Assembly: GCA_017940545.1 (NCBI GenBank)
Contig: JAGAYI010000008.1
Location: 17,011 to 81,010 of the forward strand
Reading direction: 5' to 3'
From: Prevotella sp.
GTDB lineage: Bacteria > Bacteroidota > Bacteroidia > Bacteroidales > Bacteroidaceae
DNA length: 64,000 nt
The translations under genes and the position numbers were made by a program. Below are positions 27,673 to 47,618 of the stretch, one piece after another. Below the pieces are notes generated by a model. It saw only the letters and a program-made list of their open reading frames with translations, was not told the origin of the DNA and ran no database searches. Within the stretch, counting starts at the first letter, position 1, and every line of letters starts with the position of its first letter.

Positions 27673-27769
27673 CCACACAACAAAGTTCACCAACAACCTG
27701 GTCAGCCACAGTGTCCGACCGTTCAATACGGGGAATGACTCTCGCCGTCAGGCGTATAGTTTTTTGTTT

Positions 27770-27808
27770 GTTGTTGGTGCCGCCTATATATATAGCGGCA
27801 CCAACAAC
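27770..27808. repeat. Long inverted repeat after the dipeptidase gene
   Basis: Perfect 14-bp arms (GTTGTTGGTGCCGC at 27770-27783, GCGGCACCAACAAC at 27795-27808) around a TATATATATA-type loop; the pairing extends imperfectly into flanking T and A runs. It may act as a terminator for the dipeptidase transcript: a T-run follows at 27834-27842 but is not directly next to the stem. Confidence 0.6.
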
Positions 27809-27877
27809 GAACGAAAAACAGCCAGACTAAACAATTTTTTTCTGACACTTTTTCAACAATGAACAGTGTGACTTACT

Positions 27878-28045
27878 AAAGTGCCGCCTTCTGCCCCAGA
27901 AAACGGCACTTTCACTGTGTGTAAACGGCACTTGCAACCTGTAAAAGTGCCGTTTACACAACGTCTAAGTGCCGTTTACACAACGTCTAAGCGCCGTTTG
28001 CACAACTTCTAAGCGCCGTTTGCACTAAGCGGCGTTTGCAGCCAG
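27878..28045. repeat. 22-bp-period array 1 with core in both orientations
   Basis: Units begin at 27878, 27900, 27922, 27944, 27966 and 27988 (22-bp steps), then 28010 and a shortened step to 28026. The 11-bp core after the first base is AAGTGCCGCCT, AAACGGCACTT, AAACGGCACTT, AAGTGCCGTTT, AAGTGCCGTTT, AAGCGCCGTTT, AAGCGCCGTTT, AAGCGGCGTTT. Units two and three are thus the reverse complement of the others in the same register. There are no unique spacers and no coding frame. Confidence 0.85.
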
Positions 28046-28136
28046 TCAAGTAACCGTAAAAAATAGATTGTTACTATTATAATTTCTGATTATTTTCTGG
28101 CACTTTCTTTCCATTCAAAAAAATCAAGCATATCCT

Positions 28137-28167
28137 TTTGCGTTTCCGTTTTTTCTTCGTATCTTTG
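28137..28167 (+). promoter_or_regulatory. Consensus promoter with no coding gene downstream
   Basis: TTTG (28137-28140), 19-bp spacer, TATCTTTG (28160-28167). No plus-strand gene follows before the convergent LuxR gene, so it probably drives the structured RNA below. Confidence 0.75.
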
Positions 28168-28173
28168 CAACAC

Positions 28174-28440
28174 CGTATATTGTGGGTAGTGGCCTGCAGC
28201 GCGGCAACTTATCGGTAAAATGAAGCGTTGTGCTTCTGTCTTGTGTGTTGAAACCTGAGAAATTTCAAGAATAGTCAAGATGGAGTGACAATGGTTCACG
28301 CTTTAGGCGTGGCCTGTTATTTCTATGTCTTCCTATTCGGGTTTTCTCAGGACCTCAACACTGGGATGTGGAGCGTATCAGTTCCACGCTTCTGACGTAT
28401 TAACTGGTTTCGAGGGATTGGAAGCCGTCTTATTTCTATA
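28174..28440 (+). ncRNA. Candidate structured non-coding RNA
   Basis: The stretch behind the consensus promoter has no credible open frame but folds strongly. GTGTTGA (28245-28251) pairs with TCAACAC (28355-28361), CCTGAGAAA (28254-28262) with TTTCTCAGG (28343-28351), GAATAG (28269-28274) with CTATTC (28333-28338), and CACGC with GCGTG (28297-28311) close the tip, giving a long rod with internal loops. Flanking hairpins are GAAGC/GCTTC (28222-28236) and GTGGA/TCCAC (28368-28387). The rod-with-bulges shape recalls 6S RNA, but no family signature was recognised. It does not match tmRNA or RNase P motifs. The 3' end is a guess. Confidence 0.6.
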
Positions 28441-28548
28441 GTTTAGGAAGAATCCCCTTGCTGACATCGAAGACGAAGAAGAGGAATAGAATCATAACAA
28501 CAACAATATTATATACATTAAGGTAGTTACTCTGTTTCAAGCGGAAAC

Positions 28549-28597
28549 AACACAATCGCCCGGCTGGCCGTGAGGCCCGCCGGGCGGACGTGTGTTG
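28549..28597. terminator. Terminator of the partner-switch operon
   Basis: Nested stem: CAACACA (28549-28555) with TGTGTTG (28591-28597), and CGCCCGGC (28557-28564) with GCCGGGCG (28579-28586). It lies just past the LuxR stop codon; the minus strand then reads TTGTTTCC. Confidence 0.65.
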
Positions 28598-28618
28598 CAT
28601 AGCCGTGCCGTTGCTGCA

Positions 28619-29215
28619 CTATATCTTGTTGATATCCACGTAGCCGTGCATGACGGCATAGATGGTGAGGGCCGACACACTCTTGAAGCCCAGCTTGTCC
28701 ATGATGTTTTTGCGGTGGGTGACCACGGTGGCAAGGCTGATGCAGAGGCGCTCGGCTATCTCCTTGTTGATGAAGCCCTGCACAATGAGCGACATGACCT
28801 CTATCTCGCGGTCGGTGAGCAGCTTCTGCTCCAGCACCGGTGGCATGGGGGGCAGGTTGCGTCCGCCGCCGTGGGCGTGCTGAACCATCATGAGCAGCTG
28901 GCGCACCAACTGCTTCTCGGGCTGGTTGATGCAGAGCGCGTGGAACTCGCTGAGCTGCGAGGTGTCGCCCAGCGAGAGTGTCAGCACAATGGTCTTCCGG
29001 CGGTGCTCAGAGAAGAACGCCCGCTGCTGCAGCACAATGTTCATGGACACGAAGTAGTGGACGAAACGCTCGGGGGCGTCCGCCTGGAACTCGCCGAAGG
29101 AGCCGTAGGTCTCGACGGTCATGATGGGCATGACGTGCTGCAGCATCTGCTTCAGGCCTACTGCTGCCAGGGTGTTGGCATCGACGATGGCTATGAGTGG
29201 CCGGCTGTAGTGCAT
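28619..29215 (-). CDS. LuxR-family regulator with receiver-like N-domain
   Basis: 198 residues. The first 120 resemble a receiver domain in length and start (RPLIAIVDANTLAAVGLKQML), but no phospho-acceptor Asp is visible where expected (YFVSMNIVL). The C-terminal GerE domain is intact (LTDREIEVMSLIVQGFINKEIAERL...VVTHRKNIMDKL), and the tail LTIYAVMHGYVDINKI resembles that of the hemerythrin-LuxR protein (LTIYAIVNGLVDIS), so the two DNA-binding domains belong to one subfamily. It lies 7 nt downstream of the STAS gene and may be the output of that signalling unit. Confidence 0.88.
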   Translation of the reverse strand: MHYSRPLIAIVDANTLAAVGLKQMLQHVMPIMTVETYGSFGEFQADAPERFVHYFVSMNIVLQQRAFFSEHRRKTIVLTLSLGDTSQLSEFHALCINQPEKQLVRQLLMMVQHAHGGGRNLPPMPPVLEQKLLTDREIEVMSLIVQGFINKEIAERLCISLATVVTHRKNIMDKLGFKSVSALTIYAVMHGYVDINKI

Positions 29216-29222
29216 GGTGCTG

Positions 29223-29525
29223 TCACTTGATGTCGAAGAGGTTGAAGAAGCCCGTCATCATGAACACCTTGCGTATTTCTTCGTTGATGTTTTCAATGAT
29301 GACCTTTCCGTTTTTCAACTGTGCCTCCTTGCGCACGGCGAGGAACAGGCGGAGTCCGGAACTGCTGATGTATTCCAGATGGGTGCAGTCGAGAACAATG
29401 GTTTTGTCAGCATTCTCAATGAGGGGCTGAAAGTCTTTCTGTGCGCTGACTGCCGCGGGGGTGTCGAGTCGGCCGACAAGGCTGGCAGTAAGTCCGTTGC
29501 TGTTGTTTTGAATATTAATTTCCAT
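29223..29525 (-). CDS. STAS-domain anti-anti-sigma-type protein
   Basis: 100 residues, a single STAS domain. The switch-loop motif YISSSGLRLF is present; Ser55 aligns with the phospho-serine of SpoIIAA/RsbV. It is probably phosphorylated by an RsbW-like kinase and dephosphorylated by a PP2C phosphatase, both of which are domains of the protein encoded just upstream. No sigma factor gene is nearby, so the downstream target is unknown. Confidence 0.93.
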   Translation of the reverse strand: MEINIQNNSNGLTASLVGRLDTPAAVSAQKDFQPLIENADKTIVLDCTHLEYISSSGLRLFLAVRKEAQLKNGKVIIENINEEIRKVFMMTGFFNLFDIK

Positions 29526-29580
29526 ATTATATTAGTTTAAAATGTTGTTTGTCCGTCATGTGATGGGGGTTGGGGCGGGG

Positions 29581-31986
29581 CTACGCCTGCTGCTGCGGTG
29601 TGGTGAGGTTCTTGATGAGTGTCAGCGTGTTGACGTCGTTGATGCGCTCGTAGTTGACGGCATCCATGATTTTGCGCACCAGGAATATTCCCAGTCCGCC
29701 AATGGGTCGCTCCTTGACACCTAAGGTGATGTCGGCCTCCTCCTGTGCGGTGGGGTCGAAGGGCTGTCCCTCGTCGGTAATGATGAACTTCAGCTGTTGG
29801 TCGGTCAGCAGTGCGTCAATGCTGACGTGCCCCTCGCTGCCGTTGGGGTAGGCGTAGAGGATGACGTTGGTGACTGCTTCTTCGACGGCCAGGTTGAGGC
29901 TCATGGTTAGTGACATGTCGAGGCCTGCCTCGTCTCCTATTTCTTCCAAAAAGGCAGCGAGCTTGGAAATCTCTTCTACTTGATTGAGTAAGGTCAGTTT
30001 CTTTTCCATCTTTATCTCGTGTTGGGGACTACAATATTTGACAATGAGCATGGTGAGGTCGTCGCTTTGCTCGGCGCCGCCGGCATGCTGGCTGACGACG
30101 TTCTCCATGAATTCTATTTGTTGCCTGGGCGATGCATGGCGCACCTCCCTGAGTTTCTCAAGCACCTGCTCGTCGCCCAGCTCCTGGTGGTCGGCGTCCT
30201 CGGCCTCGTTGAGCCCGTCGGTAAAAAGGAAGATGCTTGCATTGGGCGACATCACGGTTTCCTGCCCCTCGTATTTGCTGTCTTCAAAGGCTCCGATGGG
30301 CAGGTTGGGGCGCACCTCAATGTAGTGCACGTCGTCGCCGTTGATGGCGATGGGGGCGTTGTGGCCTCCGTTGCAGAAGCGGAGCCGTCCTGTGGGCAGG
30401 TCGAGCACTCCGACAAAGAGTGTGACGAACATGCATGAGTCGTTGTCGTGGCTCATGGTCTCGTTGATGTGGGTGATGATTCTGGCGGGGTTGCTCTCGT
30501 GGGTGGAGAGTGTGCGGAACATGGCTCTGGTGAAGGCCATGAGCAGCGAGGCGGGTATGCCCTTTCCGCTGACGTCGCCGATGCAGAAGAAGAGCTTTTC
30601 GTCGCGGATGTAGTAGTCGTACAGGTCGCCGCCCACCTCCTTGGCAGGCGACAGCCAGGCGTAGATGTCGATGTCGTCGCGCTCGGGGAAGGGCGGGAAG
30701 CGCTTTGGCAGCATGGACATCTGAATCCTGTGGGCCGTGAGCAGTTCACCCTCTATGCGGCCCTTGGCTTCGTTGACGGTCTTCAGCTCCTCGATGTGCG
30801 ACGTCAGTGACTTCTGCATGGCGGTGAACGAGTCGTGCAGAAGGCGCATCTCGTCCTTCGACATGATGTAGGGCAGCGGGGTCTTGAAGTTGCCGCGGGC
30901 TATCTCGTCGGCCGACCGTGCGAACAGCCTGAGGGGCTTGGTGGTTCTGTGGATGGCGACGTGGCACACAAAGGCCACGATGATGAGACCGAGTACAATG
31001 ATGATTGCGAAGGTAAGAATCAGCGCATTGATGACGCCCGTGAAGTCGTCGAAGGGCGTGATGACGGCTATCGCCCAGTTGGTGTTCCTGACGGGGCTGT
31101 GGTGAACAAACTGTATCTGGTTGTTTTGCTTGAAGGTGGAAAAACCATCCTGGGCGCTGAGAATGTTGGCCACGACGGTGGTGTCGTTGCTGCCATCGCA
31201 GGTACGGCGGATGTAGTCGAAGATGGTTTTGTCATTGGCGGTCTGTTTGGTGTCAGAGGCAATGAAGTTGCCCTTCTGTGTGATGATGAAACTGTGAGAG
31301 TTTCCATGAGTAAACGTTGGCATGGCACCTTTGTTGTTGAAGATGCTGTCCATCTGCGAGCGTAGCTCTGACAGCCAGTCGAGCGAGATGTCGGCCGTCA
31401 GGGTGGCATACTGCCTGCCCTGTTTGTCGAAGAGGGGTGGGGAGTAGGTGACCATTCCCATGTTGCCTCCGCCGGTGTCTATGTAAGGTTCGCTCCAGTA
31501 GCCCTGGCCCTTTTCCTTTGCCTGCAGGTACCATTCGCGGTGAAGGTAGTCGTAATCGGGCGTGCCCAACTGCTTGGTGTGTACACCGGTGCTGTCGTTA
31601 TAGGCGTAAGGAGCGAACGTGGCGCCCTTTTGTGGAAAATAGTTCGGCTCGAAGGCCACGGCCGAGCCGGTGATGTAGGGGTTCAGCGTGACGATGTTTT
31701 CGACGACGGAGTAAAGGGCGTCAGGGTTCGATAGGCGCTCCTCCACCTCGGGAACATAGTTCTGCAGGGTTATTTCAACGGCCGTGAGCGGCTGGCTGAT
31801 GCGCTCCTCGGCCACGTCTAAGTTGGTCTGGAAGAAGATGGCAAGCATGGCGGTTCCCGTTGACCACAGGAGGCCCAAAATGACAGCGATAATGACGTCC
31901 ATAATGATGAACACCGTCAGCGTGACACGCCAGGTAAGACGGGTGGATATGGAGCGTGAGGGTCTGAAGTAATTAAGAATCTTCAT
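29581..31986 (-). CDS. Membrane sensor with fused PP2C (SpoIIE) phosphatase and RsbW-like kinase domains
   Basis: 801 residues. Order: membrane helix (about 20-48), periplasmic Cache-type sensor (about 60-310), second helix (about 320-345), HAMP (about 345-400), SpoIIE/PP2C phosphatase (about 430-650) with EVGGDLYD, GDVSGKG, TDGLNEA and DDLTML metal sites, then a GHKL ATPase (about 665-795) with the N-box NLAVEEAVTNV and GGLGIFLV. Opposing phosphatase and kinase activities toward a STAS protein are thus in one polypeptide, and the STAS gene follows 55 nt downstream. It probably responds to an extracytoplasmic small molecule. Confidence 0.94.
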   Translation of the reverse strand: MKILNYFRPSRSISTRLTWRVTLTVFIIMDVIIAVILGLLWSTGTAMLAIFFQTNLDVAEERISQPLTAVEITLQNYVPEVEERLSNPDALYSVVENIVTLNPYITGSAVAFEPNYFPQKGATFAPYAYNDSTGVHTKQLGTPDYDYLHREWYLQAKEKGQGYWSEPYIDTGGGNMGMVTYSPPLFDKQGRQYATLTADISLDWLSELRSQMDSIFNNKGAMPTFTHGNSHSFIITQKGNFIASDTKQTANDKTIFDYIRRTCDGSNDTTVVANILSAQDGFSTFKQNNQIQFVHHSPVRNTNWAIAVITPFDDFTGVINALILTFAIIIVLGLIIVAFVCHVAIHRTTKPLRLFARSADEIARGNFKTPLPYIMSKDEMRLLHDSFTAMQKSLTSHIEELKTVNEAKGRIEGELLTAHRIQMSMLPKRFPPFPERDDIDIYAWLSPAKEVGGDLYDYYIRDEKLFFCIGDVSGKGIPASLLMAFTRAMFRTLSTHESNPARIITHINETMSHDNDSCMFVTLFVGVLDLPTGRLRFCNGGHNAPIAINGDDVHYIEVRPNLPIGAFEDSKYEGQETVMSPNASIFLFTDGLNEAEDADHQELGDEQVLEKLREVRHASPRQQIEFMENVVSQHAGGAEQSDDLTMLIVKYCSPQHEIKMEKKLTLLNQVEEISKLAAFLEEIGDEAGLDMSLTMSLNLAVEEAVTNVILYAYPNGSEGHVSIDALLTDQQLKFIITDEGQPFDPTAQEEADITLGVKERPIGGLGIFLVRKIMDAVNYERINDVNTLTLIKNLTTPQQQA

Positions 31987-32008
31987 GTTTTCTCTGACAT
32001 TTTGCTTG

Positions 32009-32039
32009 CAAAGATACGATTAAGTGAGCAAAGTACAAA
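32009..32039 (-). promoter_or_regulatory. Promoter of the partner-switch operon
   Basis: Minus-strand TTTG (32036-32039), 19-bp spacer, TATCTTTG (32009-32016), 22 nt before the start codon at 31986. The spacer contains GCTCACTTAATCGT, nearly identical to the spacer of the ABC-F promoter. Confidence 0.8.
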
Positions 32040-32094
32040 AAGAAAAAGCATTTTTCTTTTTTACTTTCGAACAAAAGTATCTTCGACCGTAGGT
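32011..32094. repeat. Palindromic promoter-associated element, copy B
   Basis: Outer arms AAGATAC (32011-32017) and GTATCTT (32077-32083). The inner arms 32030-32047 and 32051-32067 pair with one bulged C. Compared with copy A at 4732, the outer pair G-C has become A-T on both sides, which keeps the pairing. Confidence 0.75.
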
Positions 32095-32097
32095 CAG

Positions 32098-32136
32098 AGA
32101 TACGATTAAGTGAGCAAAGTACAAAAAGAAAAAGCA
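32098..32136. repeat. Direct repeat of the left half of element B
   Basis: A 39-bp stretch identical to 32012-32050 recurs 86 bp further on, just beyond the full palindrome and before the terminator. In this second copy the -7 box is changed to TATCTCTG, so it is probably not a working promoter. Confidence 0.85.
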
Positions 32137-32142
32137 ATATGA

Positions 32143-32180
32143 AAAGAACGCACAGTAGTGAAACTGCGCGTTCTTTCCAT
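32143..32180. terminator. Terminator of the decarboxylase operon
   Basis: Stem 32143-32156 with 32163-32176 (14 bp, one mismatch), 6-nt loop; the minus strand continues CTTTTCAT. It follows the beta-subunit stop codon at 32210. Confidence 0.7.
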
Positions 32181-32209
32181 GTCTTGATGACGTTAAGGGT
32201 TGAAGTGCG

Positions 32210-33367
32210 TCAGGTCAGGAATCCCAACAGTGCTCCGGCAGCGACGGCCGAGCCGATGACACCGGCCACGTTCGGTCCCATGGCGTGCATGAGCAGGAAA
32301 TTGTGACGGTCGTACTCCAGTCCGAGGTTGTTCGATATGCGGGCTGCCATGGGCACGGCGCTCACTCCGGCATTGCCGATGAGCGGGTTGAGCTTCTTGT
32401 CCTTCGGCAGGAAGAGGTTCATCAGCTTCACAAACAGCACGCCGCTCATGGTTGCCACGATGAAGGCGCAGGCACCGATGAAGAAGATGAAGATGGTATT
32501 CAACGTCAGGAACTCTGAAGCCTGCGTGGAGCAGCCTACGGTAAGGCCGAGCAGCATCACCACGATGTCGTTGAGCGCCGAACCGGCAGTCTTGGCCAGA
32601 CGGGTGGTCTTGCCGCTTTCCTTCAGCAGGTTGCCGAAGAACAGCATGCCGAGCAGCGGCAGGCCGCTGGGTACGATGAACGTGGTGAGCAGCAAGCCGA
32701 TGATGGGGAACAGGATGCGCTCCGTCTGGCTCACCTCGCGGGCGGGCTTCATCTTGATGACGCGCTCCTTCTTGGTGGTGAGCAGACGCATCAATGGCGG
32801 CTGAATGAGCGGCACCAGAGCCATGTAGCTGTAGGCACAGACGGCAATGGCTCCCATGAGGTTCGGCGAGAGCTTCGAGCTGAGGAAGATGGCCGTGGGG
32901 CCGTCGGCACCGCCAATGATGGCAATGCCTGCTGCCTGATTCGGCTCAAAGCCTAAAGCCAGGGCCGTCATGTAGGCACCGAAGATGCCAAACTGCGCTG
33001 CGGCTCCTATGAGCACCAGCTTGGGGTTGGCTATCAGGGCCGAGAAGTCGGTCATGGCACCTATGCCGAGGAAGACCAGCGGCGGATACCAGCCCAGCTT
33101 TACTCCCTGGTAAAAAAAGTTCAGCACGGAATTGTCCTCGTAGAGTCCTATCTCCAGACCGGCATCAGCGCGGAAGGGAATGTTGCCAAGAATGATGCCC
33201 AGTCCGATGGGGACAAGGAGCAGCGGCTCAAAGTCCTTCTTGATGGCCAGATAGATGAGGATGGCACCGACGACAATCATGATGAGGTTACCTGCCGTGG
33301 CGTTGGCAAAGCCCGTATAGGTCAGGAACTCATTGAAATTTTCTGCTATGAAGTTTGTAAATCCCAT
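32210..33367 (-). CDS. Sodium-pumping decarboxylase, beta subunit (OadB/MmdB type)
   Basis: 385-residue integral membrane protein with about nine to eleven helices. It couples decarboxylation of a carboxybiotin intermediate to Na+ export. Family motifs are GIGAMTDFSALIANPKL, GGADGPTAIFL and LMHAMGPNVAGVIGSAVAAG near the C-terminus. The biotin carrier gene is 32 nt upstream. Because methylmalonyl-CoA mutase is encoded divergently nearby, the likely substrate is methylmalonyl-CoA (propionate pathway) rather than oxaloacetate; this is inference. The alpha (carboxyltransferase) subunit is not in the window. Confidence 0.95.
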   Translation of the reverse strand: MGFTNFIAENFNEFLTYTGFANATAGNLIMIVVGAILIYLAIKKDFEPLLLVPIGLGIILGNIPFRADAGLEIGLYEDNSVLNFFYQGVKLGWYPPLVFLGIGAMTDFSALIANPKLVLIGAAAQFGIFGAYMTALALGFEPNQAAGIAIIGGADGPTAIFLSSKLSPNLMGAIAVCAYSYMALVPLIQPPLMRLLTTKKERVIKMKPAREVSQTERILFPIIGLLLTTFIVPSGLPLLGMLFFGNLLKESGKTTRLAKTAGSALNDIVVMLLGLTVGCSTQASEFLTLNTIFIFFIGACAFIVATMSGVLFVKLMNLFLPKDKKLNPLIGNAGVSAVPMAARISNNLGLEYDRHNFLLMHAMGPNVAGVIGSAVAAGALLGFLT

Positions 33368-33399
33368 AGTTCTGTCTTTATTATTTTACGGTTCTACCT

Positions 33400-33870
33400 T
33401 TACCCGATGGTCAGGAGTACGGCACCCTCCATGACGGAGTCACCATTGCTGACGTTGATGCTCTTGACGGTTCCGGCATATTCGGCCTCGATGTTGTTCT
33501 GCATCTTCATGGCCTCTAACACAACGACCGTGTCGCCAACGTTTACCTGCTGGCCTACGCTGACGCAGATGTTCGTGATGGTGCCGGGCAGGGGAGCCTT
33601 CACGGCATTGCCACCGCCGGCATTGGCAGCAACACCTGCTGCTGCAGCAGCGGGGGCAGCAGAGGCTGCCGGTGCAGCACTCTCGGCAGCCGGCTGTGGA
33701 GCACTCACCTTGGGCTTCACAATGGTAGGATGCTTGGCAGCATTGATGGGCTGCTGCAGTTCCACCTCGAACGGAATGCCGTTCACGTTTACTTTGGCGA
33801 TGTTGCCTTCTACTTCCTCGATTTCTACTTCGTAGTCAACACCTTGTACTTTATATTGATACTTGCTCAT
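33400..33870 (-). CDS. Biotin carboxyl carrier (gamma) subunit of the decarboxylase
   Basis: 156 residues. A small N-terminal domain (1-45), an Ala/Pro-rich linker (about 50-90) and a biotinyl domain with the attachment motif EAMKMQN (Lys122). It carries CO2 from the carboxyltransferase to the membrane beta subunit. It lies between the OadG-like and OadB-like genes with 36- and 32-nt gaps. Confidence 0.95.
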   Translation of the reverse strand: MSKYQYKVQGVDYEVEIEEVEGNIAKVNVNGIPFEVELQQPINAAKHPTIVKPKVSAPQPAAESAAPAASAAPAAAAAGVAANAGGGNAVKAPLPGTITNICVSVGQQVNVGDTVVVLEAMKMQNNIEAEYAGTVKSINVSNGDSVMEGAVLLTIG

Positions 33871-33906
33871 AACTCTCTTTATTCTTTAATCTTTGTTCTT
33901 TTATTT

Positions 33907-34947
33907 TTATCGCATCTCGGGCCCCGTGGGAATCTTCGGGGCAGTGTGGGCTGTGGGAATAATCGGGTCGTGGAACTGGGTCATCTGTGAGTACTCGTCG
34001 TCCCAGCCGGTATCCTTCGACTTGATGGTAATGACACCACTCTCCACGTCGTGGACATCGTCCTGATACTGTTTCAGTGCCATGCCGATGACAGCCATAT
34101 ATACTTCCAGGTCAACACCCTTGGTCTTCAGACCGTCATGCAGGATGTTACCCGTAATGTGGCCCACCTCCATCGTCTTCTCGACGGTCTTGGTAATGGG
34201 CTTGATGGGTTGTTTGTTGACTACCTTCTTGGCCGTCTCTTGGTGTTTCATAATGACTCCGAAGATGGTAAAGAAGAGCCACAGCAAGGCCAGGCAGAAG
34301 AACACGATGCCCATGGCCATGACCGTCATGGCCAGGCCGTAGGGGTCTTCACGCTTGAACTTGTCAATCTTCGACTCGCTGACGGTCGTGTTGTTCGAGA
34401 TGCCCGGAGTCACGCGGTCGGCCGACTTCACTTCCCAGTCGGCAGCATTTCCGTTGTTGGCAATGCGGGCAAACGACTGGTCAGCCTGCATGGCGGGAAC
34501 CCGGACGGAGTCGATGAGCTGTGTGGCATTGCCGTTGTAGAGACCAATCCATACGGGCTCACCCGGTGAAACGTTGGTGGCGAGGTGCAGGGAACCCAGA
34601 TGGGGCTTACTGTTTAGAAAGAGTACCAAGTGTTTCCGTCCGGTAAGGTTGGTGCGCTCATCGCCGTTAGGGATGATGCTCATTCGCTTGATGCGTTCGG
34701 GAACACTCATGTGTGGGTCAAGTACGGAACGGTCGGTGGTAACATACATACCACGGATGTTGTAGGTGGAATAGGAGATGTTTTCAATCTCTAACCATGC
34801 CTTGTGCTCTCCGTACTCGTCCTGCAGGCTGTTGCTGTTGTCCGTCATCACTTCGTTCAGCTTGATGCTGGCGTCCATCTGGGCGTGCATCGCTGAAGTG
34901 CCGGCAAACAGCAAGGTGCCGATTAGAAAGCAGAATTTTTTAGTCAT
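33907..34947 (-). CDS. OadG-type delta subunit with N-terminal lamin-tail-like domain
   Basis: 346 residues. A signal peptide (MTKKFCFLIGTLLFAGTSAMHAQ) precedes an extracytoplasmic domain (about 25-185) with a lamin-tail-like pattern (IKLNEVMTDN, HKAWLEIENIS, YNIRGMYVTTD). Then comes one membrane helix (about 203-230) with the OadG-like context YGLAMTVMAMGIVFFCLALLWLFF, and a cytoplasmic tail. Ordinary OadG proteins are about 80-120 residues, so most of this protein is extra. It sits in the decarboxylase operon and probably anchors the complex. Confidence 0.82.
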   Translation of the reverse strand: MTKKFCFLIGTLLFAGTSAMHAQMDASIKLNEVMTDNSNSLQDEYGEHKAWLEIENISYSTYNIRGMYVTTDRSVLDPHMSVPERIKRMSIIPNGDERTNLTGRKHLVLFLNSKPHLGSLHLATNVSPGEPVWIGLYNGNATQLIDSVRVPAMQADQSFARIANNGNAADWEVKSADRVTPGISNNTTVSESKIDKFKREDPYGLAMTVMAMGIVFFCLALLWLFFTIFGVIMKHQETAKKVVNKQPIKPITKTVEKTMEVGHITGNILHDGLKTKGVDLEVYMAVIGMALKQYQDDVHDVESGVITIKSKDTGWDDEYSQMTQFHDPIIPTAHTAPKIPTGPEMR

Positions 34948-34986
34948 ATTATTTTTAGTACCTGTATTATTATATTCTTGTGTATC

Positions 34987-36693: not shown

Positions 36694-36882
36694 AATTAAT
36701 AATACTAACGCTTATTTTAAAAAACGGTTGCAAAATTACACAATTTCCGTCTTTTTGCGCAATTTTTATTCAACTTTTTTACGTGGCGGCCACCACTTTT
36801 ATGTTATTTTACATTTTCAGGATTTCCCTGAGTTCAAAAAAGGCATACGTGTGTCAGTATAAATATAAAATATTTATTAAAA

Positions 36883-36916
36883 TTTGCGGCAGTTCGAAAA
36901 TAAGTTGTTACCTTTG
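36883..36916 (+). promoter_or_regulatory. Promoter of the methylmalonyl-CoA mutase genes
   Basis: TTTG (36883-36886), 22-bp spacer, TACCTTTG (36909-36916), about 65 nt before mutA. No cobalamin-riboswitch motif was seen in the leader. Confidence 0.65.
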
Positions 36917-36981
36917 CAGGACTTTTGCAAACTGTAAAACGACAGTATTACTTATATAATAATATTTCAAAACGTAAAACT

Positions 36982-38829: not shown

Positions 38830-38848
38830 AGAATAGGAGACTTGAATT

Positions 38849-41014
38849 ATGCGTAAACAATTTAAAGATATTGATATCTATGCAGGCATCAAGGCTCAGG
38901 ATGGTGCCAAGTGGATTAAAGAAAATGGTATTGTAGAGAACTGGAAAACCCCCGAGCACATTGAGGTTCGCCCAGTCTATACCAAAGAAGACCTGGAGGG
39001 CATGGAGCACCTCGACTTTACGGCCGGCATTCCCCCTTACCTGCGCGGTCCGTACTCCATGATGTACCCCTTCCGCCCGTGGACCATCCGCCAGTATGCC
39101 GGATTCTCAACGGCTGAGGAGTCAAATGCTTTCTATCGTCGTAACCTTGCCTCGGGCCAGAAAGGTCTTTCCGTGGCCTTCGACCTGCCGACACACCGCG
39201 GATACGACCCCGACAACGCCCGCGTCGTCGGCGACGTAGGTAAGGCTGGCGTAAGCATCTGCAACGAGGAGAACATGAAGGTGCTCTTCTCGGGCATTCC
39301 CTTGAACAAGATGTCCGTGTCGATGACCATGAACGGTGCCGTGCTGCCCATCCTGGCATTCTACATCGTGGCTGGTCTGGAGCAGGGTGCACAGCTTGAG
39401 GAGATGGCTGGAACCATCCAGAACGACATTCTCAAGGAGTTCATGGTGCGTAATACCTATATCTATCCGCCCGCATTCTCGATGAAGATTATTGCCGACA
39501 TCTTCGAATATACTTCCCAGAAGATGCCGAAGTTCAACTCTATCTCTATCTCGGGTTACCACATGCAGGAGGCTGGTGCTACGGCTGACATCGAGTTGGC
39601 TTATACGCTGGCTGACGGTATGGACTACCTGCGTACGGGTGTCAACGCCGGTATCGACGTCGATGCCTTCGCACCGCGTCTCAGCTTCTTCTGGGCCATC
39701 GGCATGAACCACTTTATGGAGATTGCCAAGATGCGTGCAGGCCGTCTGTTGTGGGCCAAGATTGTGAAGTCGTTCGGTGCCAAGAACCCGAAGTCGCTGG
39801 CCCTGCGTACCCACTCGCAGACCTCCGGCTGGTCGCTCACCGAGCAGGATCCCTTCAACAACGTGGGACGTACCTGTATCGAGGCCATGGCCGCCGTGCT
39901 GGGTCACACCCAGTCGCTGCACACCAACGCCCTCGACGAGGCCATCGCCCTGCCTACCGACTTCTCGGCACGTATTGCCCGTAACACCCAGATCTACATA
40001 CAGAACGAGACCAAGGTCTGCAAGCAGATTGACCCGTGGGCCGGCAGCTACTATGTGGAGACACTGACCAACGAGCTCGTTCACAAGGCTTGGGAGCACA
40101 TTCAGGAGATTGAGAAGCTGGGTGGTATGGCCAAGGCCATCGAGACCGGTCTGCCCAAGATGCGTATTGAGGAAGCCGCTGCCCGCACACAGGCCCGTAT
40201 CGACTCAGGTGTGCAGACCATTGTCGGCATCAACAAGTACCGTCTGGAGCACGAAGACCCCATCGATATCCTTGAGGTGGATAACACCGCCGTGCGCCAG
40301 CAGCAGGAGGAAAGCCTGAAGCAGGTTCGCGCTACTCGTGACGAAGCCGCTTGTCAGGCCGCCCTGAAGGCCATCACCGACTGCGTGCGTGACTTCAACG
40401 AGGGCCGCAAGAGCGAGAACAACCTGCTCGACCTGGCCGTCAAGGCTGCCCAGCTGCGTTGTACCTTGGGTGAGATAAGTGATGCCTGCGAAGAAATCGT
40501 AGGACGTTATAAAGCAGTAATCAGAACAATTTCAGGCGTGTATAGTTCAGAATCAAAGAACGACAGCGACTTCGAGGAGGCCAAGCGCCTTACCGACGAG
40601 TTTGCCAAGCGTGAGGGTCGCCGTCCCCGCATCTTCGTTGCCAAGATGGGTCAGGACGGTCACGACCGTGGTGCAAAGGTAGTGGCAACGGGATATGCCG
40701 ACTGTGGCTTCGACGTGGATATGGGCCCGCTGTTCCAGACTCCTGAGGAGGCTGCCCGCATGGCGGTAGAGAACGACGTCCACATTGTGGGAGCATCGTC
40801 GCTGGCTGCCGGTCACAAGACGCTTATTCCGCAGCTCATTGAGGAGTTGAAGAAGCTGGGCCGTGAGGACATCATGGTGACCGCCGGCGGTGTGATACCC
40901 GCTCAGGACTACGACTTCCTCTACAAGGCAGGCGTAGCAGCCATCTTCGGTCCTGGCACCCCGATTCCGTACTCTGCCATTCAGATGATGAAGATTCTGC
41001 TCGACGAAAATTAA
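38849..41014 (+). CDS. mutB: Methylmalonyl-CoA mutase, large (alpha) subunit
   Basis: 721-residue adenosylcobalamin-dependent enzyme of the succinate-to-propionate route. The TIM-barrel has [28 protein letters not shown] and the substrate-binding [19 protein letters not shown]. The B12 domain has DGHDRGAKV with His605 as lower axial ligand, and [11 protein letters not shown] strong bidirectional terminator follows. No epimerase gene is present in the window. Confidence 0.97.
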
Positions 41015-41044
41015 TTCGCTTGATGAGTGTGAATGACTGATAAT

Positions 41045-41084
41045 AAAAGAGCATCCTGCACGCGCAGGATGCTCTTTTATTTTA
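41045..41084. terminator. Bidirectional terminator between mutB and the hydrolase-peroxidase gene
   Basis: Perfect 15-bp stem AAAAGAGCATCCTGC (41045-41059) with 41064-41078 and a 4-nt loop; A-run before and T-run after, so it works on both strands between convergent genes. Confidence 0.95.
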
Positions 41085-41098
41085 TACCTTCACAGAAC

Positions 41099-43228
41099 TT
41101 ACATGTTTAACAAGTCGGCAATGTCTTTGCTGATGTTCTCCATAGGTTCTGTCGGTTCGTAGCGCTTAATTACCTGACCCTCACGGTTTACAAGGAATTT
41201 GGTGAAGTTCCATTTAATGCTGGCTTTCTTGTCGTAGTCGGCATCTTGCTTGCGCATCATCTCGTCTAACAGTTTTCCTAACCTGTCGTTCAGGTTGAAG
41301 CCGCCAAAGCCCTTCTGGCTTTTCAGGTAAGTGTAGAGTGGGGCTTCGTGTTCACCGTTCACGTCAATTTTGTCAAATTGCGGGAACTCAATGTCGAAGT
41401 TGGCTGTACAGAACTGGTGAATCTCCTTGATGCTTCCCGGAGCCTGTTGCCCGAACTGGTTGCAGGGGAAGTCCAATATTTCCAGGCCCTGTTGCCGATA
41501 CTGCGTATAGAGCGCCTGCAAATCCTTGTACTGTGGAGTGAATCCGCATTTTGTTGCCGTGTTGACAATCAGCAATACCTTGCCCTTGTACTTGCTCAGC
41601 CTGACGTTTTCGCCATCGTCGTTCACCACCTGAAAGTCATAAATGCTCGTCTCGGTTGCTGCGGCAGTTGTCGTGGGACAGATGGACTGAAGCCAGCTGA
41701 ACAGCTCGTCCAAGGCGTAGTCACCACTGTGGGGTCGGTTCCATGCTAAGAGGAAGTTCACGTTCTTCCCTGCATTCTGCAGTTTGGTAGCCAGATTGAC
41801 GGGTATGGGGAATGCCGTGTCGCGGTCTCTTGCGCCATGTCGGATGTACCAGTGGGGTGCAACGGTTGTAGCGGCATCGCCAATAAAACTCATGGGGTTC
41901 ATCAGACGCACGTTCTGACGTACTGCATCAGTGACGACCGTATGGTTTTTCTGGGCCGTGAAGTCGGTGAAATTTACGCTGCTGCCCGTCGCATCTCCGA
42001 ACTCCTCGTTCTCTCCGCTGCCTTCATTCACGTTCTCTATCCAACTGTCGAAGGCAGGAACACCCTTCAGGGCCTGTGTGGAAACCACGTAGTTCAGGTA
42101 TTTCTGCATGTCGAGTGCCGTAATGTATTCACCCACTTGTCGGCCTCCCGTGGCGTTGCCGCGTTTGGGACGCTTCACCTTGTAGCCTATTGGCGGCCGT
42201 CCGCCGGCAGGCAGCATGGGTTTCATGACGCCGTTGGCACCTCCGTTGACGGGTGCTGCAAACATGCCTCCTGCAGAGTTGCTGAACGAGAACCCAATGT
42301 TGTCAGGAATGTCAGCGCCGGCATTTTTTGCTATTTTTGCCGAACGTATGATTTCACTCATGATGTAGTCCATATAATTCTCTGCCGTGAGCGGTGTGCC
42401 GTCGGGCTTGCGCAGGTTCAGGCTGTTGATGTAGGCCGGAAACATGTCTGCCAGTTCCGCAGTGTAGGCCTTGTGTGTCTCGTCGAGTGCCTGCCGTGAG
42501 TCGGTCTGCCGGAACAGCCATTCGTATGCCATGTCGGCATGTTCGAGGTCGATGATGGGACAGTAGCAGACGGCGGCGAACACGTCGTCGCGTTCGTCGG
42601 CTGCCCCCATTGCTTTTAGCAGTTCGGCATATTCCGGCCGGTTGCCCGTGGCTCCTAACAGTGCCGACATGGCCCCGCCGGCGCTGGTCCCGTCGGTCAC
42701 GATGTGTTCTGCATCGCCCAACATCTCCTTGTCGAAGTGGCGCAGGTATCTGACAGCCGCCTTCAGGTCAAGAATGGCTTTCGGGGCACGTCCGGTGTAG
42801 ATGGTCTGTCCTTTCTTCACGCCTTTGTGCTTTTTGGCGTATGCCCGGTCGGCCGTAATCGTGGCGTTTCGCCCGCGCGTTCCCGGAATAACCACTACAT
42901 ATCCTTCCTTCAAGGCTCTTCCTGTGGCGTCGCCGGCCTGTGGCTGGGCAGCAGGTGAAGCCATATAGCCGCCGACGTAGGTGCGCAGGAATATCGGGGT
43001 CTGCTGGGTAGCGCCCTCGGGAACATAGACGTTCAGGAATTGATAGGTGGAGTCTTCCACGTTCGTTACATAGTAAAGCTGTTCGTAGGCAGTATAAGCC
43101 ACCGCTGTACCGTCGTGTAGCTCAATGGTTTCGCGGTGTCCTGCTGAAGCGTCGAACTTCAGCGATACCTGTGCCGTCGTTCCCATGGCGAAGCAGGCAC
43201 CAATAAGTAATAGTTTTAATTTTTTCAT
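41099..43228 (-). CDS. Secreted tannase-like alpha/beta-hydrolase fused to glutathione peroxidase
   Basis: 709 residues. Signal peptide (MKKLKLLLIGACFAMGTTAQ). Residues about 30-515 form an alpha/beta-hydrolase with the nucleophile elbow DGTSAGG (Ser182) and the overall look of subtype-B tannase/esterase proteins. From residue 528 to the end there is a complete glutathione-peroxidase/BsaA domain: NTATKCGFTPQ (Cys561), FPCNQFGQQAPG, and WNFTKFLVN (Trp673). The ATG at 43228 is chosen: it starts the signal peptide and has AGGGAGAG about 10 nt upstream; an ORF start at 43261 would overlap the upstream gene. The reading frame is continuous across the junction, so it is not two genes. Confidence 0.9.
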   Translation of the reverse strand: MKKLKLLLIGACFAMGTTAQVSLKFDASAGHRETIELHDGTAVAYTAYEQLYYVTNVEDSTYQFLNVYVPEGATQQTPIFLRTYVGGYMASPAAQPQAGDATGRALKEGYVVVIPGTRGRNATITADRAYAKKHKGVKKGQTIYTGRAPKAILDLKAAVRYLRHFDKEMLGDAEHIVTDGTSAGGAMSALLGATGNRPEYAELLKAMGAADERDDVFAAVCYCPIIDLEHADMAYEWLFRQTDSRQALDETHKAYTAELADMFPAYINSLNLRKPDGTPLTAENYMDYIMSEIIRSAKIAKNAGADIPDNIGFSFSNSAGGMFAAPVNGGANGVMKPMLPAGGRPPIGYKVKRPKRGNATGGRQVGEYITALDMQKYLNYVVSTQALKGVPAFDSWIENVNEGSGENEEFGDATGSSVNFTDFTAQKNHTVVTDAVRQNVRLMNPMSFIGDAATTVAPHWYIRHGARDRDTAFPIPVNLATKLQNAGKNVNFLLAWNRPHSGDYALDELFSWLQSICPTTTAAATETSIYDFQVVNDDGENVRLSKYKGKVLLIVNTATKCGFTPQYKDLQALYTQYRQQGLEILDFPCNQFGQQAPGSIKEIHQFCTANFDIEFPQFDKIDVNGEHEAPLYTYLKSQKGFGGFNLNDRLGKLLDEMMRKQDADYDKKASIKWNFTKFLVNREGQVIKRYEPTEPMENISKDIADLLNM

Positions 43229-43257
43229 ATAGACGACTCTCCCTGACGCTGTTCTAC

Positions 43258-43800
43258 TCAAAGCATAGCCTCAATATCTTTCTCAAAGTCCTTCGGCTCT
43301 GTGGTTGGGGCATAGCGCTTAATGGTTTCACCGTCTTTCGAGATGAGGAATTTGGTGAAGTTCCACATGATGTCACTCTCTTTCTCAACACTCTTGCTAA
43401 GCTTCTTCAGCAGGGCGTGAGTGGCTTTGGCCTTCAGTCCGAGATACTCTTCGGTGGGAGCCTGCGACTTCAGGTACTCGAAGATGGGTTCCGCATCAGC
43501 ACCGTTCACGTCGGTTTTCTTCATGATCTGGAATGTCACGCCGTAGTTCAGCTGGCAGAACTCTTCAATCTGTGCATCGTTGCCGGGGTCCTGCTCCTTG
43601 AACTGATTGCAGGGGAAACCGATAATTATCAGTCCCTTGTCCTTGTACTTCTGGTTCAACGCCTCTAACCCTGCAAATTGGGGGGTGAATCCACACTTGC
43701 TGGCCGTGTTGACAATCAGCAGTACCTTACCTTGAAACGCAGAGAAGTCTATCTCCTTGCCTTTGCTCGTGAGAGCCTTGAAATCATAAATCTTTTGCAT
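43258..43800 (-). CDS. Glutathione peroxidase (BsaA/Gpo family), cytoplasmic
   Basis: 180 residues without a signal peptide. Peroxidase motifs: NTASKCGFTPQ (peroxidatic Cys36, not selenocysteine), FPCNQFKEQDPG, and WNFTKFLISKDG. Such enzymes usually take electrons from thioredoxin in bacteria. It is 29 nt upstream of the hydrolase-peroxidase fusion, whose C-terminal domain is similar to it, so a duplication followed by fusion is likely. Confidence 0.96.
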   Translation of the reverse strand: MQKIYDFKALTSKGKEIDFSAFQGKVLLIVNTASKCGFTPQFAGLEALNQKYKDKGLIIIGFPCNQFKEQDPGNDAQIEEFCQLNYGVTFQIMKKTDVNGADAEPIFEYLKSQAPTEEYLGLKAKATHALLKKLSKSVEKESDIMWNFTKFLISKDGETIKRYAPTTEPKDFEKDIEAML

Positions 43801-43841
43801 ACCTTATCAGTTTTAAATCGTTATTTATATCGTTCACGATG

Positions 43842-43872
43842 CAAATATATTAACAAACATTTGTATAGCAAG
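43842..43872 (-). promoter_or_regulatory. Promoter of the glutathione peroxidase unit
   Basis: Minus-strand CTTG (43869-43872), 19-bp spacer, TATATTTG (43842-43849), about 41 nt before the start codon. Palindrome-like ATCGTTCACGAT (43829-43840) lies just downstream of the -7 box and could be an operator. Confidence 0.65.
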
Positions 43873-43954
43873 CGATTTGACTAAAACTTTAATATCCTTT
43901 AACGATATGTCGCGGACGATATAATCTTGCGGAAACGGCATCAGAAGTGGTCGT

Positions 43955-43995
43955 AACGTTGTTTTGAACGTTGTTATAACGTCGTTTTAACGAAC
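43955..43995. repeat. 11-bp-period AACGTTGTT repeat
   Basis: AACG starts at 43955, 43967, 43978 and 43989 (spacings 12, 11, 11), with AACGTTGTT, AACGTTGTT, AACGTCGTT and AACGAACTC. The period equals one DNA turn and half of the 22-bp arrays. Confidence 0.7.
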
Positions 43996-44044
43996 TCACG
44001 GAGAATGTGACTTCACGGTGTCCTTCACTAACAATAAAAGCGAA

Positions 44045-44139
44045 AAATCCTGCATTTCCTGCACCCGATACTGATTATCAGCATGTTGCAAAGATTTTTC
44101 TGCACCCAAACCTGCACCTAAATCACCATTTCTTGCACC
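44045..44139. repeat. Left arm of a ~95-bp inverted repeat
   Basis: This arm and the one at 44438-44533 are near-identical in opposite orientation, differing at only a few bases (for example TTTTTCTGCACCC against TTTTCCTGCACCT). The arms are rich in CCTGCACC motifs and enclose about 300 bp that contain 22-bp-period array 2. Confidence 0.85.
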
Positions 44140-44201
44140 TGACCGCTGTTTTGATATACGTTAACGTCAGTACCAGATTTTATCCAATATTTTGGTACGG
44201 A

Positions 44202-44338
44202 CAGTACCACGCGCATGTACAAGCAGTACCAGTCCCATGTATAACGGCTACCACGCCGCTGAACAAGCAGTACAACGCCGTTTGCAACTGCGTAAACGCC
44301 GTTCAAGATTGCTTAAACGCCGTTCATAAAGACTGCGG
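44202..44338. repeat. 22-bp-period array 2
   Basis: Units start at 44202, 44224, 44246, 44268 and 44290, then one near 44311. They share CAGTACCACGC at the left, which changes step by step to TACAACGCCGTTT and TAAACGCCGTT at the right. The right-hand core matches that of array 1. An inverted GGTACG core lies in the preceding 22 bp. Confidence 0.8.
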
Positions 44339-44437
44339 CAACCAGTGAAACTTAAAATAATACCCATGATTCCAATTCCTTTCAAGAAAATGTCGGTGTC
44401 ATTCTGGTGCTTAAGGGCGTTTGTTTCCTTGTCGGCA

Positions 44438-44533
44438 GGTGCAGGAAATGGGGATTTAGGTGCAGGTTTAGGTGCAGGAAAATCTTTGCAACATGCTGAT
44501 AATCAGTATCGGGTGCAGGAAATGCAGGAAATT
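44438..44533. repeat. Right arm of the ~95-bp inverted repeat
   Basis: Reverse complement of 44045-44139 with few differences. No recombinase gene is nearby. Confidence 0.85.
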
Positions 44534-45073
44534 TGGGAGAAACCGTGTGTTACTTGCGAAAGAGCTTTGAACAACCAATTAGGATAAATACGGGAAACAC
44601 GCATCAAACAGTCTGTCTGTTTATAAAAGACAGTCCACATCAACAATTTCAGATTATTCCGAAAAGCCAGTTGGAAAATTGTTTTAGCAACGGACCACAG
44701 GACTTTAGGACTATTTCACACACCATGCATAAAAGTCTTTCAAGTCCTGTATTCCGTTGCAAATACACAGCCGTATTTTCGGGTAGAATCATCATTTCTT
44801 GAAGAACCTCATTGCCGCAATCGGAGCATATTGTTGTCTTTGACAACAAACCAGAGGTCATTCAAGGATATCGTATTAAAGGCACTAAATAAAATGCGCA
44901 AGTTTACTGCCGATTGTATTCACAATAAAGTTGTTCCATATTGGAATCTTCTTTTTGAATAGCATATTTAAAATTGAGAGGCTCTATTGCTAAAAATCCT
45001 TCCAAATGGATTTCCTTTTACCAGTTCCATTGGACTGCTTGAAGTTGCCACTACCTTCACAAAGAATTTCATA
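44534..45073. other. Intergenic stretch without a recognised gene
   Basis: About 540 bp, A/T-richer than its surroundings. Only short overlapping frames are present. One minus-strand frame (44649-44861, 70 residues) has two CxxC pairs (CSDC, CMVC) like a zinc ribbon and could be a decayed gene fragment, but nothing supports it as expressed. Confidence 0.4.
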
Positions 45074-46111
45074 TCAATAGATAGGAACCTTTTTAGTTTC
45101 CCATTCAGATTGAGGTATCATGATTCCGGCTTTCCTTGCTTTATTCCGCCATTTCGCCATCTCTTTTTGTGCGTTACGAAGGAGTTCCATATTTTTTTGA
45201 TATGTTACAGTTCCACCGCTATGTCCTGCAAGAGAATTATATACATTCTGGGCTTGTTTCTCCCATTTTCGATACATCGTTTCGTAATTGCCGCCAGAAG
45301 ATGAATTGCTACCACTGCTATAAGACGAAGAGCCATAATAACCTGAGCTATAATTCTGATTTGCCTCTACTGCACTTGACCATGCGCTGGCTGCAGCACC
45401 GCCAACCGTTACAATTGTCAGAAGCGTTGCCCCGACATATCTCCATGCACTTGACTTGAAACGAATGCCAAGCGTGGCCATTACTACGGGTTTGTTTTCG
45501 TCTTTATATCCTTTATAGAAACAAGGTATATTGTAAGTTGCACCAAGACTTAAGCATTTCCAGTTGATGGCAACAGAGGGTTCTAAACCAACTTGTAGCT
45601 GGTCACCCCATTTCGAATCACTCCAGCCATTATTCGTGTTGTTTTCATTTCGATAAAATCTCCAACTGCCGTCAGGTATAAAAGACATGTATGGGCCAAC
45701 TCCGACATGAAGTGAAAAGTCTTTACCAAGTGGTTGCTTATATGTCAGGCGTAATGGCAATTCTATAAGGCTCTTGGCTTCGAATTGTCTGTTCTCTGTT
45801 TGTGTATAAGAACTGCCAACTGTTTTTATCGTGTATTCATTCTCTACAAATGAATGGTGCCTCTTATAACGCAGTCCTGTTTCCAGATTCAACTTGTCAT
45901 TAAGCGGAATTTCTATTCCCAAGCCCGCCATCCATTCCTGGAAATTTTCCTTCTCCCTGTTGTCGCTACTATGGGTATCATAGAAGTACGCTTCACGGGA
46001 CATCCAACCACCTTTCAAGTTCCACATTACCTGCGACTTAGCCGTAGCGAACAACACCATAAAGAGGATTGCAAAGGTTCCTCGTTTTCTAAAAAATCCA
46101 TCATTCTTCAT
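45074..46111 (-). CDS. Outer-membrane beta-barrel-like protein of unknown function
   Basis: 345 residues from the ATG at 46111 (MKNDGFFRKRGTFAILFMVLFATAKSQ, a signal peptide). Residues about 30-235 show alternating strands of a PorT/OmpW-like small barrel (GLGIEIPLNDKLNLETGLRYKRHH; FSLHVGVGPYMSFIP). Then comes a hydrophobic segment (YVGATLLTIVTVGGAAASAW), a Ser/Gly/Tyr-rich linker and a Lys/Arg-rich helical tail. No named family was recognised beyond the barrel pattern. A candidate structured RNA lies in its leader region. Confidence 0.7.
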   Translation of the reverse strand: MKNDGFFRKRGTFAILFMVLFATAKSQVMWNLKGGWMSREAYFYDTHSSDNREKENFQEWMAGLGIEIPLNDKLNLETGLRYKRHHSFVENEYTIKTVGSSYTQTENRQFEAKSLIELPLRLTYKQPLGKDFSLHVGVGPYMSFIPDGSWRFYRNENNTNNGWSDSKWGDQLQVGLEPSVAINWKCLSLGATYNIPCFYKGYKDENKPVVMATLGIRFKSSAWRYVGATLLTIVTVGGAAASAWSSAVEANQNYSSGYYGSSSYSSGSNSSSGGNYETMYRKWEKQAQNVYNSLAGHSGGTVTYQKNMELLRNAQKEMAKWRNKARKAGIMIPQSEWETKKVPIY

Positions 46112-46185
46112 AATTGTGTATTTTTGGTTAATAATAAAAAGAGTAGCAGAAGTAAGGGCAGAAAGAATGGCGTGGTCATCCTTAT

Positions 46186-46368
46186 GCACTAAACCTTAGA
46201 GGCGAGCCTAGGAAAATTGGAACCCCTACTATCTAATAAGAATGCTCCACGCCATAAGCGTGTGCATAGCATATACAGATAGTCAGGTATGCCCTTCCTC
46301 AGGCTTTCCCCTTGCTTCGTCTTTCGACCATTCCAAATTAAGTTTCCTAGGCTTCTTCGGTTTAGTGC
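46186..46368 (-). ncRNA. Candidate structured RNA (leader or independent transcript)
   Basis: GCACTAAACC (46186-46195) and GGTTTAGTGC (46359-46368) are perfect complements closing a 183-nt domain. Inside, 46206-46222 (GCCTAGGAAAATTGGAA) pairs with 46331-46352, ACTATCT (46228-46234) with AGATAGT (46277-46283), and ATGCT/AGCAT plus CACGC/GCGTG form a central hairpin. On the minus strand GTC-GAAA-GAC is a tetraloop hairpin. A TATCTTTG box on minus at 46419-46426 suggests leftward transcription, ending near the start of the barrel gene. It could be a riboswitch-like leader, a 6S-like RNA or a small palindromic element; no Rfam family was recognised by eye. Confidence 0.6.
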
Positions 46369-46418
46369 GAAATAAAAGCTAATGCATCTCTGACTCGGGA
46401 TTTCTCCCCAAATCGCTA

Positions 46419-46452
46419 CAAAGATAGTGAAAAAATTTCAAACAACTGCAAT
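46419..46452 (-). promoter_or_regulatory. Probable promoter of the structured RNA / barrel gene
   Basis: Minus-strand TATCTTTG (46419-46426) with ATTG (46449-46452) 22 bp upstream. Confidence 0.5.
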
Positions 46453-46532
46453 TTCGTTAGGAAATTTGTAAAAAAATATGTCAATTCGGGAAATATGCCA
46501 AAATCAGTACACATTACTGTCAAAAGAATTAG

Positions 46533-46642
46533 AGAGTGCCGTGGAAACCGGGAGAAAGCTATCAACTTTTGCCCACCGTGGTATCAACTTTTGTTTGCCG
46601 CAGTACCAACTTCGTCGGCATTTTGTGATACCACGGTGCATG
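46533..46642. repeat. 22-bp-period array 3
   Basis: Units start at 46533, 46555, 46577, 46599 and 46621, exact 22-bp steps. TATCAAC, TATCAAC and TACCAAC sit at the same offset in units 2-4. Unit 5 carries the opposite orientation: TGATACCACGGTG (46626-46638) is the perfect reverse complement of CACCGTGGTATCA (46574-46586). Confidence 0.75.
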
Positions 46643-47541: not shown

Positions 47542-47618
47542 CAGCATACTTTTCGAATGGTCGAAAGCAAACATGTGCAATAACTTTAGTTATTCTGTAA
47601 CTTTAATTATATAGAGCA

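Follow-up and report, generated by a model that had tools for sequence, protein, structure and literature searches.

Intergenic 22-bp arrays in a Prevotella genome and their association with HU-HIG genes

Arrays of the window and the anatomy of their units

The stretch analysed here, called the window throughout, comprises 64,000 nucleotides of a Prevotella sp. genome (assembly GCA_017940545.1, contig JAGAYI010000008.1) and carries three intergenic arrays of short units laid out in steps of about 22 bp, or two turns of DNA. Array 1 (27879..28042, no strand assigned) consists of seven 22-bp units with the core AAGTGCCGTTT in both orientations. Plus-strand cores lie at 27879, 27945, 27967, 27989 and 28011 and minus-strand cores at 27901 and 27923; the latter occupy the same 11 unit positions as the former, and all seven are spaced exactly 22 bp apart. 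A preliminary description, made from the letters of the window, had given the core as forward in units 1 and 4-7 and inverted in units 2 and 3. The orientations and the register are as described, but unit 1 carries the variant AAGTGCCGCCT and the final two cores read AAGCGCCGTTT. The best 66-bp score at lag 22 was 59, a value reached by none of 1000 dinucleotide shuffles (shuffle maximum 34).

Array 2 (44202..44333, no strand assigned) starts with GTACCACGC-like words in 22-bp steps, at 44204, 44226, 44248 and 44270, and continues with AACGCCGTT cores at 44274, 44295 and 44316, which are 21 bp apart. Its score was 43 (0 of 1000 shuffles), with 22 as the top lag and 21 as the second. It is enclosed by a left inverted arm on the plus strand (44048..44141) of 94 bp, which contains CTGCACC repeats and is 96% identical to the right arm on the minus strand (44436..44529). 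Array 3 (46555..46640, no strand assigned) is the weakest of the three, with a score of 32 against a maximum of 30 in 1000 shuffles; three GTATCAACTTTTG-like units follow one another at 22 bp, and a further unit (46621-46642) is inverted, as the preliminary description had already recognised. Lag 22 was the best lag in every case. The exact 22-bp period claimed earlier for all three arrays is therefore found in array 1 and, more weakly, in array 3, but is lost over the last three cores of array 2.

Units of the AAGTGCCGTTT family were collected with up to two mismatches allowed, giving 59 units at 13 loci in the genome of the window and 71 at 18 loci in a second genome of the genus, G056. Conservation of the core is partly by construction, since the units were selected on it. 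The 11-bp linker lies outside that selection and forms a gapped dyad with an empty centre, CTCYNNNRGAG in G056 and roughly TSACNNNGTSA in the genome of the window, so that each unit holds two dyads 11 bp apart. All four combinations of half-sites occur (AAGTGCCGTTT, AAACGGCACTT, AAGTGCCACTT and AAACGCCGTTT), and because of this, together with the two dyads per unit, the pseudo-palindrome permits a flip in register. The apparent inversion of the core is mostly half-site variation; the minus cores do keep the helical phase, as had been claimed, but for the most part they are not literal reversals. A possible exception is L010, where opposite cores enclose a perfect palindrome, perhaps the trace of a real inversion at that place. 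Dyad symmetry was significant in 31 of 74 arrays (p<0.05) by column shuffles, a test which replaced a best-axis score that had no null, and in 24 of 38 arrays at the HU-HIG loci considered below.

The arrays are mosaics. In the genome of the window a shared module, W3 (TTTCCCCGGCAGTTTCTCC), is preceded by differing first modules, and in G045 a GCACAACAGSTGTTGTGC module is common to two arrays. The idea that only the pattern of weak and strong base-pairs is kept was dropped, as A-T and C-G exchanges from one unit to the next were in excess in the window's own genome only.

Symmetry of this type might also arise if the arrays were transcribed into small RNA hairpins. Where both mirror positions vary, Watson-Crick pairs are indeed in excess (1336 cells, 1112 in shuffles). 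However, the G-U cells fall from 293 in shuffles to 250 and the A-C cells from 252 to 208, a similar drop, and the lack of a G-U preference argues for DNA over RNA. Cores such as AAGTGCCGTTT are only weak palindromes, the arrays sit between genes in every gene orientation, and no Rfam match was obtained within the window. An RNA element was rejected on the absence of both the Rfam match and the G-U preference, and we regard it as very improbable. The occurrence of arrays in all intergenic orientations likewise led us to reject an element confined to promoters or to 3' ends.

Spread and dispersal of the arrays

The word AARYGCCGTTT occurs 50 times in the genome of the window, compared with 14 times for its reversed control, and 27 of its 28 neighbour spacings below 150 bp are multiples of 22, the remaining one being 65. 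An autocorrelation scan that used no word was made over 464 kb, ie the window and 20 further stretches, on contigs picked for prior word matches. It gave 22 places at lag 22 and 15 at lag 44, against 0-2 at each of 38 control lags between 13 and 71, from which multiples of 3 were excluded since coding DNA inflates them. Two of the 22 places came from the original finding, five have word matches, one lies beside such a match and 14 are new; at least one (L060, 4996) resembles low-complexity DNA. The preliminary description had taken an excess of 22-bp autocorrelation across the genome as one of the points on which its proposal turned, and that excess is present. Decay from a coding gene was rejected, because 22 cannot be divided by 3 and the surplus of places lies at lags 22 and 44; the short frames called inside arrays match no long gene.

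The word itself has a narrow distribution. It is clearly enriched in the genome of the window (39 matches, 5 for the control) and in only one of 59 other congeners, G056 (46 and 0). Words differ between species and between arrays and the period is kept. In G016 there were 14 lag-22 places in 200 kb, with 0-3 at other lags apart from 44; in G045 there were five in 100 kb (0-4 at other lags), and in G010 four in 100 kb once masked runs were excluded. Stretches from 20 congeners gave 13 lag-22 places in 272 kb, compared with 0-5 at other lags, and arrays were present in 8 of the 13 genomes represented by at least 15 kb. One of those stretches (G040) had been chosen around an earlier match, so the unselected set amounts to 12 arrays in 7 of 12 genomes.

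Twenty other genera of the same family (f1, which we take to be GTDB Bacteroidaceae) gave 14 lag-22 places in 368 kb, against 0-2 at other lags, and 11 genera were positive, with one of the 20 stretches fully masked and many of the places near the threshold. At a threshold of 40 five places remained, while lag 23 gave one and lag 21, a coding multiple of 3, gave four. The 13 named Prevotella(ceae) loci gave six lag-22 places in 222 kb, two of them convincing, with one control lag reaching five, and so support the pattern weakly. In 16 other families of the order the two places found in 258 kb are background; the one convincing array outside family f1 is in G070. The three arrays of the window are members of a large group of satellites that lie between genes in family f1.

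The preliminary description had also suggested a small replicating element. This is partly borne out: six arrays built from one pair of modules can be aligned over about 170 bp of array, with differing ends and mostly unshared flanks, although three of the six have some sequence in common further upstream. Among 106 flanks of 53 ortholog-like genes no orthologous gap had an array in both genomes, and nine (seven distinct arrays) had one in a single genome. An inverted pair of at least 39 bp within 400 bp accompanies 7 of 31 arrays. Linkers from one locus resemble each other more than linkers from different loci do (5.1 and 3.4 of 11 positions, respectively, in the genome of the window; 7.6 and 6.3 in G056).

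These four properties would all be expected of selfish or neutral dispersed minisatellites, similar to the BrickBuilt elements discussed at the end, which spread as blocks and become longer, shorter or inverted by slippage and template switching; HU-HIG genes would then merely reside in the same repeat-rich accessory regions. Slippage, however, gives no reason for one period to be kept over unrelated words in many genera, and explains neither the multiple-of-22 spacings nor the dyads. We consider this account rather unlikely, though far from fanciful.

Several inverted repeats accompany the arrays. The arms of array 2 match each other alone in their own genome, with weak matches at a few places in other genomes. 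Arrays between inverted arms of about 90-110 bp were seen in the window (44048-44529) and at L068 (7988-8402), L078 (1810-2198) and L015 (823-1178); such arms bear their own direct repeats of 11-12 bp (CTGCACC, CACCTACCT, CTATCCACTAA), whose words differ by locus except at L078 and L015. At L069 (16727-17614) a perfect 106-bp inverted repeat surrounds an array between two divergent long frames and could be an invertible promoter region. A palindrome of about 90 bp at 27743-27834 adjoins array 1, and a 95% copy on contig C37 (L012) likewise adjoins an array with the word of array 1; the palindrome may act as a two-way terminator or belong to the element. A search for copies of array 1 in plasmids and phages gave no match.

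Other features of the window include two short dispersed repeats which look like promoter regions, at 28117-28172 (four further copies in the same genome) and at 47525-47594 (matching seven places in G056). A LacZ-type beta-galactosidase is divided on the plus strand over two overlapping frames, 47619-48530 and 48512-50710, with its N- and C-terminal domains separate; the gene is either broken or truly split, or else the sequence contains an error. On the minus strand, a fusion of an esterase-like domain with a glutathione-peroxidase domain behind it (41099-43261) directly adjoins a stand-alone glutathione peroxidase (43258-43800).

HU-HIG genes beside the arrays

The HU-HIG family (PF18291) was noticed first through two matches that adjoined known arrays. 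A Pfam scan of 30 of the 34 flank genes of 19 arrays found it twice, and the only DNA-binding families of note seen more than once were HU-HIG and the BT4734-like/VapE helicase-primases. Fifteen HU-HIG matches were counted in the genome of the window, one of them not listed. At a threshold of 36 an array was adjacent to 7 of 11 full-length genes, and three shorter matches (L218-L220) had none. For 10 HU-HIG genes at a threshold of 38, an array occurred in 6 of 20 flanks compared with about 1.0 expected, the gap-length bins being summed by hand. Twelve further HU-HIG loci included five with an array, one of which is AT-rich and marginal, where about two were expected; one of these loci recurs as L260 in the G003 set described next.

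G003 was picked for its 30 HU-HIG matches, and control windows were placed by hand at round coordinates on the same contigs. At a threshold of 38, arrays were found at 18 of 20 HU-HIG loci and in 5 of 20 control windows (p=7e-5); at a threshold of 40 the numbers were 14 and 4 (p=0.004). The nearest array was within 142 bp of the HU-HIG gene in 17 of the 18 cases, and on its 5' side in 10 to 12, depending on the start codon. With a second frame caller, an array lay no further than 160 bp from 12 of 19 HU-HIG genes and from 6 of 54 control-window genes (p=3e-5).

In five genomes of four other genera a lag-22 array was present at 10 of 30 HU-HIG loci and at 1 of 30 ABC-transporter loci (p=0.006). 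When lag 23 was accepted as well the counts rose to 15 and 3 of 30 (p=0.0015); 13 of these 15 arrays are on the 5' side, and 10 are no more than 82 bp away from the HU domain. In genus g19 the arrays at L308, L312, L314, L317 and L327 have a 23-bp step and stand directly 5' of HU-HIG genes. G070, the genome outside family f1 with a convincing array, has nine full-length HU-HIG matches, and three other genomes from outside that family, G068, G072 and G073, have none. Arrays are over-represented beside HU-HIG genes in most, though not all, of the genomes tested.

The words and the proteins were also compared. Over 18 loci, similarity of words and similarity of HU-HIG proteins were correlated (rho 0.31, p=0.001). 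Four HU-HIG proteins with a W3 array directly 3' of the gene form one clade. The protein C60a, compared with C37 and with C59, has identities of 45 and 38% over the C-terminal part and 57 and 64% over the HU part, a hint from three proteins that C-terminal parts may track the first module better than HU parts do.

A number of results weigh against a link between arrays and HU-HIG proteins. In G045 an array was present in 3 of 22 HU-HIG flanks, which is not above the base-rate expectation, and the two HU-HIG loci examined in G070 showed no lag-22 array and one weak lag-44 stretch. The use of lag 23 was added after the data had been seen. When close paralogs were merged into 10 representatives, the correlation of words with proteins fell to rho 0.17 (p=0.13). 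HU-HIG number and array density are not linked, since G016 has about three strong matches and G053 one, and both are dense in arrays. Finally, long gaps draw arrays whatever gene they flank, and this explains part of the association, as the minisatellite account would have it. Among G003 genes with gaps of at least 250 bp, arrays were found at 11 of 18 HU-HIG genes and 5 of 20 control genes (p=0.047), and at 7 of 18 other genes in the HU-HIG loci. Matching on gaps may over-correct, as the arrays themselves lengthen the gaps.

The helicase-primases seen in the flank scan raised another explanation, that the arrays are iteron-like cis sites of chromosomal elements carrying BT4734-like/VapE/DUF3987 proteins. 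Iterons of 22 bp occur in plasmids. The array with inverted arms at L078 is directly upstream of a BT4734-like/VapE gene, that at L061 lies between a HU-HIG and a DUF3987 gene, and arrays, in one case weak, were found at 5 of 17 loci of PF08800, the replication family tested. The base rate of 0.16-0.27 per 3.3 kb would by itself give about 3 of 17, however, and G053 is dense in arrays where a PF08800 match is absent. The helicase-primases were rejected as partners on the near-base-rate count, and iteron-like sites are highly unlikely.

An operator array for some other dimeric regulator or nucleoid protein, stacking at the two-turn spacing, would be served equally well by the dyads and the phase, which suit any dimeric binder, and would fit the dense arrays of G016 and G053 despite their few HU-HIG genes. 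Opposed to it are the adjacency of HU-HIG genes in G003 and in other genera, and the flank scan, in which HU-HIG was the sole repeated DNA-binding family of note besides the near-base-rate BT4734-like/VapE. We judge it improbable.

The fixed lattice, the dyads and the adjacency of HU-HIG genes together favour a reading in which dimeric HU-HIG proteins have their sites in the arrays, phased at two turns and scattered in the manner of satellites, and to this we give somewhat less than an even chance. The helically phased protein-binding array of the preliminary description suits the dyad-symmetric lattice best among its proposals, with HU-HIG as the candidate by association; binding as such is what we infer. 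Dimers of HU-HIG proteins, made up of the HU domain and in some members a C-terminal extension, would line up next to one another along a single face of the DNA, with a dyad at the centre of every dimer. With such stacking, reversal of a core would be harmless and a shift of phase would not be tolerated. Arrays beside HU-HIG genes would serve autoregulation, and arrays that stand alone would be remote sites for these proteins, acting in architecture, silencing or local control of transcription. Words would be replaced fast, owing to diverging paralogs and block copying of arrays.

No HU-HIG remnants were found beside solitary arrays, and queries with one HU-HIG protein in plasmids and with another in phages gave no match. 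A search for solved relatives of one HU-HIG protein found none, and no account of a HU-HIG target site was found in the open-licence literature. We know of no function for the expanded family. According to its Pfam description, some members carry an added domain beside the HU-type DNA-binding domain.

A further step, which we find doubtful, would be a chromatin-like system of bacteria, in which a fast-evolving HU-type family with paralog-specific words forms mixed lattices on a common two-turn grid at many satellites. The words would then change between species in the manner of eukaryotic satellite DNA, with the grid fixed. Were the HU-HIG reading correct, it would point to a DNA target for the expanded family, open to direct test, and bring together many seemingly unrelated junk repeats. 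A helical period that stays constant while the sequence changes freely is an uncommon sign that spacing and symmetry are kept and the letters are not, and autocorrelation at lag 22 or 23 would be a simple marker by which any genome of the family could be searched for such sites.

Relation to known repeat systems

Plasmid iterons and tandem operator arrays are among the nearest comparable systems. The MetJ boxes, the heptads of the omega repressor and the 22-bp iterons of R6K are helically phased sites for stacking dimers, with orientation partly free. They are single loci with one word, whereas the phase here is kept as words vary by array and by species. Enterobacterial BIME/REP elements are intergenic mosaics with units in both orientations and many copies per genome; REPs, which are associated with a RAYT transposase, have stronger hairpins and variable spacing, in contrast to the fixed lattice and weak palindromes of the present arrays. 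CRISPR arrays, which go with cas genes, differ in having unique, longer spacers between constant repeats, the units here being contiguous with an 11-bp linker. No description of the present arrays was found in the open-licence literature.

The nearest relative in kind is found in Porphyromonas gingivalis, which we take to belong to the same order of bacteria as the genome of the window. Its BrickBuilt elements are described as a minisatellite of the MITE (miniature inverted-repeat transposable element) type with a single family of 23-nt units, a leader, a tail and shared terminal inverted repeats (PMC4596501). The same paper records PGN_0872, a gene for a HU-domain (PF00216) protein, beside BrickBuilt_14, one of 19 copies (PMC4596501). 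BrickBuilt and the arrays of the window alike consist of tandem units without spacers, about two DNA turns in length and scattered through intergenic DNA, and the 23-nt unit resembles the 23-bp step at the five g19 loci. The arrays of the window's genome differ from BrickBuilt in their period of 22 and their words (the BrickBuilt consensus itself was not searched for), and in having many words per genome, dyads and units in both orientations. Shared ends were not found either, as judged from one word family of six arrays and one pair of arms. The arrays are thus phased, dispersed arrays of a known general kind, to which BrickBuilt comes nearest while differing in its unit and, where tested, in its shared ends.

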